Source: Actinokineospora pegani (GTDB taxonomy: Bacteria > Actinomycetota > Actinomycetes > Mycobacteriales > Pseudonocardiaceae). From it: 64,000 nucleotides of DNA. The stretch spans positions 62,001 to 126,000 of the forward strand of contig NZ_WHOL01000116.1 in the NCBI RefSeq assembly GCF_009745975.1, given 5' to 3'. The notes under the pieces are model-generated. The model was not told where the DNA came from and made no database searches. It worked only from the letters and a program-made list of their open reading frames with translations. Of the stretch, positions 25,402-44,311 are shown piece after piece; positions within the stretch are counted from its first letter, which is position 1, and the number at the start of each line of letters is the position of its first letter. The position numbers and the translations under genes were made by a program.

Positions 25402-25550
25402 CGGCCCCCGATTCCCCCGAGCGCCGTCTCACACCCCGAAACAATCACGCAGCGCTCCCCTGCGGGGCCACGAATCGTCGCTGGGCGGTCGCATCGCCGG
25501 TTGAGACGCGGAGTGCCCGCCGCCCGCGCCCCGCTGGGCCGGATTGCTCC

Positions 25551-25624
25551 GGGGGCGGATTGCCCAGGGGGCGCATTGCCCCGGGGGCGCATTGCCCCGG
25601 GGGCGCATTGCCCCGGGGGCGCCC
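25551..25624. repeat. 16-bp tandem repeat array
   Basis: Four tandem 16-bp units of GGGGGCGCATTGCCCC (first unit at 25551 with two changes, then 25567, 25583, 25599) plus a partial fifth. Each unit has GGGGC/GCCCC ends that can pair, so the array can fold as serial hairpins. Confidence 0.85.
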
Positions 25625-32644: not shown

Positions 32645-33051
32645 TCATTGATCACCGAAGCCGAAGGGTGGTTTCTGCCCGGTTGCGGGCGAGCGGGTGG
32701 CGCCCTTGGTGCGGCGGCGACCGGTCTGGCATCACCGCGCACGTCCCACCACAGACCAGGATGCCAACGCGGGCAGAACGCTTCCGACCAGCGGTTCGGA
32801 GTTGTCCACAGGCAAGATCCACTTCGGTGTACCGATGGAGTTAAGCCGGTAGAATGGGACTCGGGACGCCCCCAGTGGTGTGGCGGGGTTTGGTGTGGCG
32901 GGGTTTGGTGTCGCGCGGTTTGGTGTCGCGCGGTTTGGTGTGGCGGGGTTTGGTGTCGCGCGGTTTGGTGTCGCGCGGTTTGGTGTCGCGCGGCGTGGGC
33001 GTGATTGGTTTGTGGGACTGAGGGCCCTGTCGTGGGCGGGTGCTGAGCCGG
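32645..33051. other. Intergenic stretch carrying a minisatellite
   Basis: No gene supported. The first 230 bp show nothing recognisable. The remainder is the 15-bp array described separately; frames through it on both strands are repeat artefacts (AGFGV/ARFGV on plus, TPNRA/TPNPA on minus). Confidence 0.6.
32876..32993. repeat. 15-bp tandem repeat (minisatellite)
   Basis: Seven complete 15-bp units beginning TTTGGTG at 32889 and every 15 bases to 32979, plus a partial unit in front. Two unit types alternate irregularly: TTTGGTGTGGCGGGG and TTTGGTGTCGCGCGG. It lies 58 bp beyond the nei2 stop codon. Confidence 0.9.
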
Positions 33052-41350: not shown

Positions 41351-41848
41351 TCAGGCGCGGGTGTCGGTGCCCGCCTGGTCGGCCAGCATGCGCAGGGCGC
41401 TGACCAGGCCGCCGGTGAGGTCGCCCTCCTTGAAGGAGGCGACCATGCTCATGACCGCGAGGTTGCAGCCCCGGTCGGGCAGCCTGCGGGCGGCCTCCTC
41501 GCCGGTGACGATCTCGACCTTGCGCTGGCCGGGCGACACCGCGATCAGCACCGAGTGGCTGGAGGCGGCGCCGATGCCCGCGTGCAGCTCCTGGGCCCGG
41601 TCGCGCGGGTCCTCGCCGAGGTCTCCCAGGTAGACGCTGAACCCGATGCTGGTCGACCGCGAGGCCAGGGTCAGCGCCTCGTCGAGGCGGGCGAGCTGCA
41701 CCGGCGTGAACGGCAGGCCGGGCTCCGGGGGCGTGTACTCCTTGGCGACCGACAGCCGTCCACTGGCGGTCCTGGCCACCCCGATGCCGTGTTCGAAGTC
41801 CTCGACCACGTGGTCGGGCGTGCTGTGCACGAGCTCACCAGTTGCCAC
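41351..41848 (-). CDS. DUF5130 (TPM-like) protein, possible aa3-oxidase accessory subunit
   Basis: A 165-residue protein with YTPPEPGLPFTPVQLARLDEAL, a TPM-like alpha/beta core (SVYLGDLGEDP, VLIAVSPGQRKVEIVTG) and no membrane segment. GTG at 41848 is chosen because AAGGGAGG is 6 nt ahead; the GTG at 41854 overlaps that site. The upstream small membrane gene overlaps it by 14 nt. From memory, the orthologous pair at the mycobacterial Rv2468c locus supplies accessory subunits of the aa3 oxidase supercomplex; treat that as inference here. Confidence 0.82.
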   Translation of the reverse strand: MATGELVHSTPDHVVEDFEHGIGVARTASGRLSVAKEYTPPEPGLPFTPVQLARLDEALTLASRSTSIGFSVYLGDLGEDPRDRAQELHAGIGAASSHSVLIAVSPGQRKVEIVTGEEAARRLPDRGCNLAVMSMVASFKEGDLTGGLVSALRMLADQAGTDTRA

Positions 41849-42095
41849 GGGCACCTCCCTTGGCGGTGCGCACGGGGGCGCTGTCCGGGTCGACGGGGCG
41901 CGCCGCCGGGTGGTCGGCGCCCAGTCCGGCAGGGTTCGCCGTCCACCACACGGGCGGGTGCTCCCACTCCTGCCCGGGGCGGTAGCGCGGCGACCTGGCG
42001 AACTTCTCGCGCAGCGTCAGCAGGGCGATCACGCCGTAGATGGCCAGCGGGATCACCGCGAGAACGAGAATGGTCTCGACGATCGTCACGGCCAT
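41835..42095 (-). CDS. Small single-pass membrane protein
   Basis: An 86-residue protein with one N-terminal helix (VETILVLAVIPLAIYGVIALLTL) followed by a basic, Trp/Pro-rich cytoplasmic-type tail (EKFARSPRYRPGQEWEHPPVWW). ATG at 42095. It overlaps the DUF5130 start by 14 nt, so the two are cotranslated and probably act together. It may correspond to the small oxidase-associated subunit encoded beside DUF5130 in mycobacteria. Confidence 0.78.
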   Translation of the reverse strand: MAVTIVETILVLAVIPLAIYGVIALLTLREKFARSPRYRPGQEWEHPPVWWTANPAGLGADHPAARPVDPDSAPVRTAKGGARGNW

Positions 42096-42425
42096 TACGG
42101 TAACGGACGAGGTGGGAGCCGGTGCGGCGAGACCCACCGCACCGCCCCGCGCTGACCGCCGCGCGCACGCCGATCCGGCTGTCGTCGCACCGCGTGACCG
42201 TTGGTGCTCTCCTGGTAAGCCTGCTCGGCCGAGTGAACGCCACCGGGGTGGCTCTTTGAGCGTATCGGCAAGGGGCGAACGGCCCCATCTGCCACAACGC
42301 GCCCCCATCGGCCGCTGGGACGTCTTGTCGGTGGCTCGTACGGGTCCTAGCTTTTCACCTGTACGGCCCTTGCGAAACCGCCATTCGCCATTCCGAGCCG
42401 CGTTCTCAGCCCAGGAGGCCACTCC
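42096..42425. other. 330-bp leader region of the hexapeptide-repeat gene
   Basis: No gene supported. It lies between two divergent genes and must hold their promoters. A candidate promoter for the plus-strand gene is listed separately. No long inverted repeat was seen. Confidence 0.5.
42325..42353 (+). promoter_or_regulatory. Candidate promoter of hexapeptide-repeat gene
   Basis: TTGTCG (42325-42330) and TAGCTT (42348-42353) are separated by 17 bp, matching -35/-10 spacing with 4/6 and 3/6 consensus bases. The ribosome-binding site AGGAGG at 42413-42418 and ATG at 42426 follow. This is a pattern match only. Confidence 0.3.
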
Positions 42426-43406
42426 ATGTACACCTTCCCTCCCCTCAGCCCGGTTGTCACTATCACCCGTTCGGGTGACGCGATGCGTTTGAGTGGTCTT
42501 CCGCTGGCAGGCCGCGCCTCGGTGCGGCCGACCGGACTGGCACTCGCGGAGCGGGGCGCGGTGGGCACCCGCGTGACGAGCGGCACCCGGGTCACGGCCG
42601 GCACCCCGGGGACCCGCGTGACCCTGGGCACAGACGCCACCATGGGCACGCGAGTCACCCGAGGCACCCGGGTCACCAGCGGCACCCGCGTCACCATGAA
42701 CGCCGACACCATGGGCACCCGCGTCACTCGCGGCACCCGCGTCACCATGGACACCGACACCATGGGCACCCGCGTCACTCGCGGCACGCGGGTCACTCGC
42801 GGCACCTGGGTGACCATGGGCGCCGACGCCATGGGCACCCGGGTCACCCGGGGTACGCGCGTCACCTGCGGGACTCGCGTCACGATGGGCACCCGAGTCA
42901 CCCGAGGCACCCGCGTCACCTCGGGAACCCGAGTCACCATGGGCACGCGGGTCACCGCCCTCGGCTTCCGCCTGACCATGGGCACCCGAGTCACCCGAGG
43001 CACCCGCGTCACCTGCGGGACTCGCGTCACGATGGGCACCCGAGTCACCCGAGGCACCCGCGTCACCTCGGGAACCCGAGTCACCATGGGCACGCGGGTC
43101 ACCGCCCTCGGCTTCCGCCTGACCATGGGCACCCGGGTCACCCGAGGCACCCGCGTCACCATGGGTACGCGAGTCACCATGGGCACTCGGGTCACTCGTG
43201 GAACCCGGGTCACCAGCGGCACTCGCGTCACCTGCGGAACCCGTGTCACGCGTGGCACCAGGGTCACCGCGCGCACCCCAGGCACCCGGGTCACCTCCTG
43301 CGGGACCCGCGTCACCAGGGGCACCCGCGTCACGCGCGACACCCGGGTGACCGGAGCCGCGCGCGGGACCAGGGTCACCCAGGGCACGCGCGTCACGCTG
43401 GTCTGA
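42426..43406 (+). CDS. GTRVT-hexapeptide repeat protein, undescribed family
   Basis: A 326-residue protein that I do not recognise. After a 46-residue N-terminus (MYTFPPLSPVVTITRSGDA), nearly everything is Gly-Thr-Arg-Val-Thr-x: 37 exact GTRVT copies plus variants (GTWVT, DTRVT, LGFRLT, NADTM). The x positions often run Met, Arg, Ser/Cys, giving an 18-residue super-repeat. ATG at 42426 lies 7 nt after AGGAGG (42413-42418). Base differences between units fall mainly at third codon positions. No signal, membrane segment or catalytic motif; extremely Arg-rich with no Lys in the array. A hexapeptide with Val and Thr at fixed spacing could form a left-handed beta-helix with three hexapeptides per turn, an inference. 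The opposite strand also has an open repeat frame but lacks a ribosome-binding site. Confidence 0.75.
   Translation: MYTFPPLSPVVTITRSGDAMRLSGLPLAGRASVRPTGLALAERGAVGTRVTSGTRVTAGTPGTRVTLGTDATMGTRVTRGTRVTSGTRVTMNADTMGTRVTRGTRVTMDTDTMGTRVTRGTRVTRGTWVTMGADAMGTRVTRGTRVTCGTRVTMGTRVTRGTRVTSGTRVTMGTRVTALGFRLTMGTRVTRGTRVTCGTRVTMGTRVTRGTRVTSGTRVTMGTRVTALGFRLTMGTRVTRGTRVTMGTRVTMGTRVTRGTRVTSGTRVTCGTRVTRGTRVTARTPGTRVTSCGTRVTRGTRVTRDTRVTGAARGTRVTQGTRVTLV
42564..43403 (+). repeat. 18-bp coding tandem repeat array
   Basis: About 45 units of an 18-bp repeat, consensus GGCACCCGCGTCACCnnn, occupy residues 47-326 of the repeat protein. The unit 42864-43010 (147 bp, eight hexapeptide units, one of them 7 residues) is repeated at 43011-43157 with a single base difference seen, marking a recent tandem duplication. 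Confidence 0.95.
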
Positions 43407-43492
43407 TGGGCACGATCCCGGGGGTGGCAGCATCCCCACCCAGGTCCACCACAGCCGTCCCGATCAGCAGCGGCAACCCGAGTGCGCACCGC

Positions 43493-44164
43493 TCAGGCCG
43501 CCTCACCCAGGTACGGCAGCCACAACGGGTCCGCGTCGACGACGCCCGCGAGCAGCCGCCAGTGCGGGCCGCGCGGGGCCGTGGGCACGACGCGCAGGCG
43601 CCAGCCGAGGTCGGTGAGGAGTTTGTCGGCCTTGCGGTGGTTGCACCTGGCGCAGCAGGCGACGCAGTTCTGCCACGTGTGCTGGCCGCCGCGGGAGCGG
43701 GGGATCACGTGGTCTATCGTCTCGGCTCGACCACCGCAGTAGGCGCAGCGGTAGCGGTCGCGGTGCATCAGCCCGGCCCTGGTCAGCGGCACCCGGCCCC
43801 GGTAGGGGACGCGGACGTAGCTGCTGAGCCGGATGACCGAGGGCACCTGCACGCTCGCTGTCGCCGAGTGCACGACCATCCCGGTCGGGTCACCGTGGAC
43901 GACCTCGGCCTTGCCGCAGACCACGAGCACGACCGCGCGCCGCAGCGGCAGCGCGGTGAGCGGCTCGAAGGTGGTGTTGAGCAGCAGGACCCGGCGCCTG
44001 CCCCAGGTCGGGGGGTGCGTGGGCAGGGGGACGGGCGCGGCGAGAACAGGCGCGCCGCGCGCCAGGGCGAGCTCGCGCTCGGGGTGCCCGCCCGTGGGCA
44101 GGCACAGCGTCGGCCGCGGCAGCCCTGGGGGCGCGCCACGGCGGGTCGGTTGTCGTTCTGGCAC
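43493..44164 (-). CDS. HNH endonuclease family protein
   Basis: A 223-residue protein with a C-terminal HNH nuclease domain: CAYCGGRAETIDHVIPRSRG, then NCVACCARCNHRKAD, giving the two Cys pairs and the H-N-H residues. The N-terminal part (VLLLNTTFEPLTALPLRRAVVLV) matches stand-alone actinobacterial HNH proteins at the Rv2469c position. GTG at 44164 is chosen for GGAGG about 6 nt ahead; longer frames lack one. Target unknown; no restriction or phage genes adjoin. Confidence 0.92.
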   Translation of the reverse strand: MPERQPTRRGAPPGLPRPTLCLPTGGHPERELALARGAPVLAAPVPLPTHPPTWGRRRVLLLNTTFEPLTALPLRRAVVLVVCGKAEVVHGDPTGMVVHSATASVQVPSVIRLSSYVRVPYRGRVPLTRAGLMHRDRYRCAYCGGRAETIDHVIPRSRGGQHTWQNCVACCARCNHRKADKLLTDLGWRLRVVPTAPRGPHWRLLAGVVDADPLWLPYLGEAA

Positions 44165-44311
44165 TCGACCACCTCCACCAGTGCTGTCTAAGTCGACCAC
44201 ACATGGGGCTGTTCGCGCACGTGTGTTCTCCCACGCGTCGCCATCCGCACCCCGTACGGCCCACTTGACCGACTTCGACGCCACCCGCGGTCGTCGCTAT
44301 CGTCGGCCCCG

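Follow-up and report, generated by a model that had tools for sequence, protein, structure and literature searches.

The left-handed parallel beta-helix (Hexapep, PF00132; LpxD, DapD and CcmN) is among the described systems closest to the repeat family presented here, in that members built of GTRVT units share its hexad period and attract scores from its profiles; unlike these proteins, the array family does not keep its period, carries no catalytic domain and has a core centred on Arg. Octad arrays of SVRIT units score with DUF2345, the Pfam family of the VgrG/TssI needle, but the likeness is one of period only, the array being a 170-residue protein without VgrG domains in another genomic setting. 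The C-termini lead to the ssrA tag and to natural ClpXP substrates with an Ala-Ala end. ClpX recognises a C-terminal ALAA in E. coli (PMC3985003), the final Ala-Ala being the decisive element and YALAA being enough on GFP in that species (PMC7652416), and the tail peptide of SspB (XB, RGGRPALRVVK) docks on the ClpX N-domain (PMC3983244). Array C-termini such as SQAEFALAA, CQSDYALAA and AQQDFALAA look like the tags of the genomes that encode them; unlike the tag, the array tail is gene-encoded, sits on a repeat protein and is absent in many genera, that of the window included. The LRVV of the SspB peptide, in a protein likewise coupled with ssrA recognition, can be set beside TRVT, VRIT, VRIS and IRVN of the arrays, a likeness that spans about four residues and was judged by eye.

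The array gene is one member of a large and so far undescribed family. The window protein passes no cut-off in Pfam or NCBIfam (33.1 versus 325 bits for the NCBIfam collagen-like adhesins, Scl), PADLOC gave no match for three members, and the PHROGs matches were weak (best E 8.4e-7) and fell on families of unknown function. A search of the open-access literature by repeat letters and host found no paper on the repeat family. The first-pass annotation, which knew of no described family with a GTRVT repeat, is thus borne out by the profile databases and the open-access literature.

The array gene and its locus

The window, i.e., the whole stretch of 64,000 nucleotides analysed, stems from Actinokineospora (Pseudonocardiaceae); the named relatives recovered by DNA search are A. 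terrae, A. diospyrosa, A. globicatena and A. sp. NBRC 105648. The features of the locus are as follows:

41835..42095, minus strand: gene of a small predicted membrane protein (MAVTIVETILV...), divergent, a conserved neighbour that 113 of 119 loci have on their left, in minus orientation
42325..42330, plus strand: putative -35 hexamer TTGTCG, read from the sequence; in relatives, a CTTGT block aligns ahead of the element
42348..42353, plus strand: putative -10 hexamer TAGCTT, 17-nt spacer from the -35 hexamer, read from the sequence; TAnnnT at equal spacing in the relatives compared
42353..42374, plus strand: 22-nt conserved element TTTCACCTGTACGGCCCTTGCG, one exact copy in its own genome, the next best with 3 mismatches
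42413..42418, plus strand: ribosome-binding site AGGAGG, 7 nt before the ATG of the array gene
42426..43406, plus strand: array protein gene, 326 aa, stop TGA
42426..42473, plus strand: N-terminal 16 residues, with a family consensus, position-locked across genera, of roughly MYTxxTPAQxxxxTRS
42564..43397, plus strand: GTRVT unit array from first to last unit, read from the translation
42829..43214, plus strand: 147-bp segmental duplications within the array, 2.6 copies, 92% matches
43398..43406, plus strand: C-terminus Leu-Val and stop, without ssrA-like tail in the window species, read from the translation
43493..44284, minus strand: HNH endonuclease gene, convergent, a conserved neighbour that 118 of 119 loci have on their right, in minus orientation

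The window protein comprises 37 exact GTRVT copies plus one GTWVT. The initial count of 37 on a 6-residue period behind an AGGAGG 7 nt from the ATG is hereby confirmed, although the unit-to-unit spacing is 6 residues in 28 of 38 cases, the remainder including 9, 11 and 13. All 38 GT[RW]VT matches of a six-frame check fall in a single frame, and the open frame over the array is kept in relatives at the loci compared, so that the GTRVT pattern exceeds chance. The annotation had also described a sixth residue that cycles with an 18-residue super-period; the cycling is indeed visible, but mainly mid-array, within the 147-bp duplications, and since this part of the array is built of such duplications, the super-period is at least partly their effect.

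The array gene is certainly protein-coding, as evident from its AGGAGG start, a pN/pS of 0.26 and saturated synonymous change inside the arrays. The start codon of 24 loci is an ATG preceded by a purine-rich Shine-Dalgarno sequence, in most cases AGGAGG. Across 21 ortholog pairs, some of which have one member in common, the plus frame gave pN/pS values of 0.06–0.57 (overall 0.26), while frames +1, +2, -0 and -2 mostly exceeded 1. Unit-versus-unit comparison within 13 arrays yielded a pS of 0.42–0.63 and a pN of 0–0.028, the latter lowered by the choice of units through the core pattern. Each unit is thus maintained by selection at the protein level. A DNA-level element or non-coding RNA is rejected on account of the codon-level constraint, and Rfam had no match in window positions 42000-43600. 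The caution that codon variation by itself does not choose the strand proved justified, in that the minus frame with the same third positions also has a low pN/pS (0.08–0.72). In 20 of the 21 pairs, however, the plus frame is the lower of the two, and together with the upstream element, the N-terminus and the ribosome-binding site, which had already been held to favour plus, this leads us to reject a minus-strand gene. The overlapping minus ORF scored 30.3 bits against a collagen profile (cut-off 27.2), a match that goes back to the same repeats.

Upstream of the GTRVT genes, the 22-nt element has the consensus TTTCACCTGTACGG(G/C)(C/T)CTTGCG, with near 2 bits per position across the block in 21 genera. 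Its distance to the start codon is 49–53 nt in 114 of 119 loci (51 in 69). The leader between element and ATG shows almost no sequence conservation, and RNAalifold detected no consensus structure in the 5’ leaders of 21 genera (-0.3 kcal/mol). In three loci of genus g8 (L153, L154, L155), this leader measures only 31 nt. The region of about 42325-42374 sits at the presumed transcription start; the hexamer pair, by eye, is what we take to be a sigma-70 promoter, and the first half of the element, TTTCACC, resembles a PHO-box half-site. A generic sigma-70 scan did not report the TTGTCG -35 candidate.

The gene was found in 16 of 16 Actinokineospora genomes searched, with open frames in relatives, which is the opposite of an array present in one strain and frameshifted in close relatives, the case that would have told against the annotation. 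The ortholog at the pepN–HNH interval for which it had proposed to look is present as well: the order pepN, DUF5130 gene, membrane gene, array, HNH and mscS is the same in most long loci compared, and the sole locus without an HNH gene on the right (L104) is truncated where its contig stops. With one member as protein query, 171 of 390 family genomes matched at E 1e-6, some of these matches being repeat-driven; G321, for instance, has no array at the HNH locus. A search with the 22-nt element (up to 2 mismatches) matched 257 of 390 family genomes, chance matches included, and 7 of 30 such genomes read were chance (L145, L146, L151, L157, L158, L163, L164). The element search brought in relatives whose different repeat unit had hidden them from the protein search, and the HNH gene as anchor added further genera. 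In total, the array was found in 37 of 46 Pseudonocardiaceae genera (35 curated plus g57 and g63), with g14, g46 and g67 left out at the HNH locus; g3, g4, g5, g47, g64 and g68 (1 to 3 genomes each) have no array there, nor do the 6 genomes examined from other families of the order. Into the curated set entered 125 loci, from which four of g57 (element diverged) dropped out without automatic call and two (L080, L196) were mis-called, leaving 119; apart from L245 and L246, the dropped loci were checked by eye and contain arrays.

Beyond the family, L094 as query matched 72 of 298 genomes of the order, 37 in the same family and 35 outside; 20 loci from 18 of the latter had no array and no element (at most one core; element with at least 5 mismatches). 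Across the phylum, 12 of 396 genomes matched, its own included, and 15 loci of the 11 others again had no array and no element (at most one core; at least 4 mismatches). When 198 genomes of the phylum were searched for the element, 25 had a match, and of 15 loci read, one was the window’s own and 14 were not members. The arrays are a genuine protein family of Pseudonocardiaceae, occupying a single locus and inherited vertically. A mobile origin was rejected in the absence of any tblastn match (query L094) among 72,556 plasmid and 50,697 phage records, a weak null result given that BLAST masks low complexity.

Core motif, spacing and C-terminal tails

The core of the units follows the pattern [G/S]-[T/V/I]-R-[V/I]-[T/S/H/N/E] and occurs as GTRVT, GTRIT, GVRVT, GVRIS, SVRIT, GIRVN, GVRIH and GVRIE. 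Weighted by genus (n = 35), position 1 is Gly in 29.9 and Ser in 5.0, position 2 Val in 18.1 and Thr in 16.0, position 3 Arg in 34.9, and position 4 Ile in 18.0 and Val in 17.0, the residues at positions 2 and 4 being almost always beta-branched; position 5 is Thr, Ser, His, Asn or Glu. The core is near-uniform inside one genome and likewise inside a genus (GTRVT 590/595 and 462/464, SVRIT 95/96, GVRIE 19/19), as counted with a pattern that admits related pentads only. Judged from these sequences, the units are homogenised within genomes and differ between genera, the signature of concerted evolution.

The spacing of the units is far less constant. The commonest value is 6 in 16 of 35 genera, 8 in 10, 9 in 5, and 7, 10, 11 or 18 in one each, and spacings of 6, 8, 9, 10 and 11 are mixed, both inside single proteins and between them. 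Members carry 2–60 unit copies, some just 2–4. One (L196, G402) is a 31-residue protein with just four GVRIN units and a diverged upstream element. Net charge ranges from -10 to +80; of 119 members, 109 have a positive and 10 (4 of 35 genera) a negative value. It is thus the motif that is conserved and not its period, with the Arg of each unit as the only conserved positive feature. In the N-terminal leader, the consensus residue by genus (n = 35) is T14 in 19, Q9 in 17, T3 in 16, P7 and S16 in 15 each, and R15 in 12.

Tails of the type [FYL]xLA[AG] were found in 37 of 118 proteins (L104, which runs off its contig, is not counted) from 9 of 35 genera, 32 of the 37 with Asp or Glu directly before F/Y/L; LA[AG] ends 45 (13 genera) and A[AG] 63 (21 genera), numbers that are not independent as the genomes are related. 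As background, 0 of 32 mechanically called ORFs of the window end in LA[AG] and 1 of 32 in A[AG]. In 20 relatives, the tag encoded by the tmRNA ends without exception in [FY][A/D/S]LAA. Of these genomes, many of which were chosen for their tails, 13 pair such a tag with an array tail of the [FYL]xLA[AG] type; in G030, for example, the tag SQREFALAA stands beside the array tail CKNDFALAA. The putative degron cannot be universal in the family, since 42 of 118 tails, the VTLV of the window included, belong to no Ala-ended class.

Fold and function

The annotation had proposed a left-handed beta-helix of 18 residues per turn with a surface suited to binding a polyanion or ice, and had suggested structure prediction as a check. 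AlphaFold with five sequences gave mean pLDDT values of 47 and 38 and pTM values of 0.40 and 0.35; for the window protein it placed strands of 2–3 residues about every 6 residues, at low confidence. A hexad member (L018) scored with CcmN at E 2.1e-10, and hexad members also score with LpxD, NeuD and DapD; L165 reached 31 bits with Pfam Hexapep (cut-off 27), as the sole one above it among 12 members scanned against Pfam, and the octad member L153 reached 61.2 bits with DUF2345 (cut-off 30.7). The cut-offs of unrelated families (DUF6799, DUF3540, ChapFlgA) are, however, passed by members as well, so that the profile scores partly reflect periodicity, and a sequence search of solved structures gave no convincing match. 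These scores, together with the predicted strands and the beta-branched positions 2 and 4, would be in line with a folded beta-solenoid or triangular beta-prism serving as a rigid rod or scaffold, where each unit forms a single strand, its positions 2 and 4 pointing inwards and its Arg outwards, and the linkers make the corner loops. The low pLDDT and pTM, the mixing of spacings within and between proteins, the members of 2–4 units and the matches to unrelated profiles count against this architecture, which we consider less likely than not. A regular hexad over at least three coils is seen locally in the window protein but not family-wide. The beta-prism thus remains a serious rival, and some form of beta-helix is conceivable; a single fixed 18-residue geometry, given spacings of 6 to 18 and members of 2–4 units, is not supported across the family.

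Our own preference, which is tentative and draws on the cores and tails, is for a multivalent motif array with a short lifetime, removed by ClpXP. The protein would be a cytosolic array of identical short motifs prone to form beta-strands, with free linkers and a position-locked leader of about 16 residues. An ssrA-like tail would deliver it to ClpXP, resulting in constant synthesis and quick destruction, while the array may act as a multivalent sponge that occupies a putative partner via the Arg-centred motif. Its dose would then be set by the load of ClpXP, and the protein would build up when ClpXP is busy with the products of stalled ribosomes; genera without an ssrA-like tail might use weaker -AA ends or another route. 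What counts against a flexible array of this kind are the beta-helix profile scores, some above a Pfam cut-off, which favour a fold. The likeness of the core to LRVV of the SspB tail peptide and the ssrA-like tails raise the further thought that ClpX itself is the partner. The family would then be a self-destroying ClpXP regulator whose units dock on the ClpX N-domain and whose tail mimics the ssrA tag; one chain might occupy several N-domains and the protease pore, acting as a proteolysis-load sensor or decoy, and the motif would co-evolve with the ClpX of each genus. We regard this specific version as distinctly improbable.

Bacillus Phr pentapeptides are comparable in size to the units, and units that are uniform inside a genome and different between genera behind a position-locked leader are what might be expected of a multi-copy peptide precursor, from which proteolysis would free many copies of a genus-specific short peptide that serves as a signal or is a modified product, the leader providing for recognition. 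The units are not separated by any constant cleavage site, the neighbouring genes compared include none for export or maturation, and no signal peptide is apparent by eye; we consider such a precursor unlikely. Much the same holds for an Arg-rich binder of nucleic acids or of polyanions, the latter put forward in the annotation: charges of up to +80 and a positive sign in the great majority of members speak for it, but the members with a net negative charge have the same Arg core, so that a basic surface is not conserved, and neither polyanion nor ice binding is supported family-wide; it is an improbable function for the family. The 147-bp duplications and the copy number of 2–60 testify to easy growth and loss, and 6 of 46 genera are without an array at the locus, as a selfish or slippage-made tandem repeat without function would predict. 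That idea is largely refuted by strong protein-level constraint alongside saturated silent sites and by the conservation of element, ribosome-binding site, leader and spacing to the element, and we give it hardly any credence.

Apart from these readings, the locus represents a conserved single-locus gene in a family rich in antibiotic producers, whose sole conserved protein feature is an Arg-centred pentapeptide that is homogenised within genomes and switched from genus to genus. With 2–60 copies and eight core versions, it offers a natural array series for the study of bacterial multivalent motifs and of concerted evolution in a putative binding motif. If the ssrA-like tails are functional, the cell would encode a mimic of its own destruction tag.

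Other tandem repeats

Different tandem arrays were encountered along the way. A genome of the same family carries one of the SGSGVISGCGVASG type (L027, G021:C101, about 1501-2382), recovered as a weak match, and a genome outside the family (G521, L293) has a (STGIRA)n array without the upstream element. The window itself harbours a 15-bp tandem repeat, TGGTGTCGCGCGGTT, at 32876-32993 (7.9 copies), reading (VAGFG/VARFG)n in the plus and (NRATP)n in the minus frame, and a 16-bp G+C-rich unit, ATTGCCCCGGGGGCGC, in five copies at 25543-25622.
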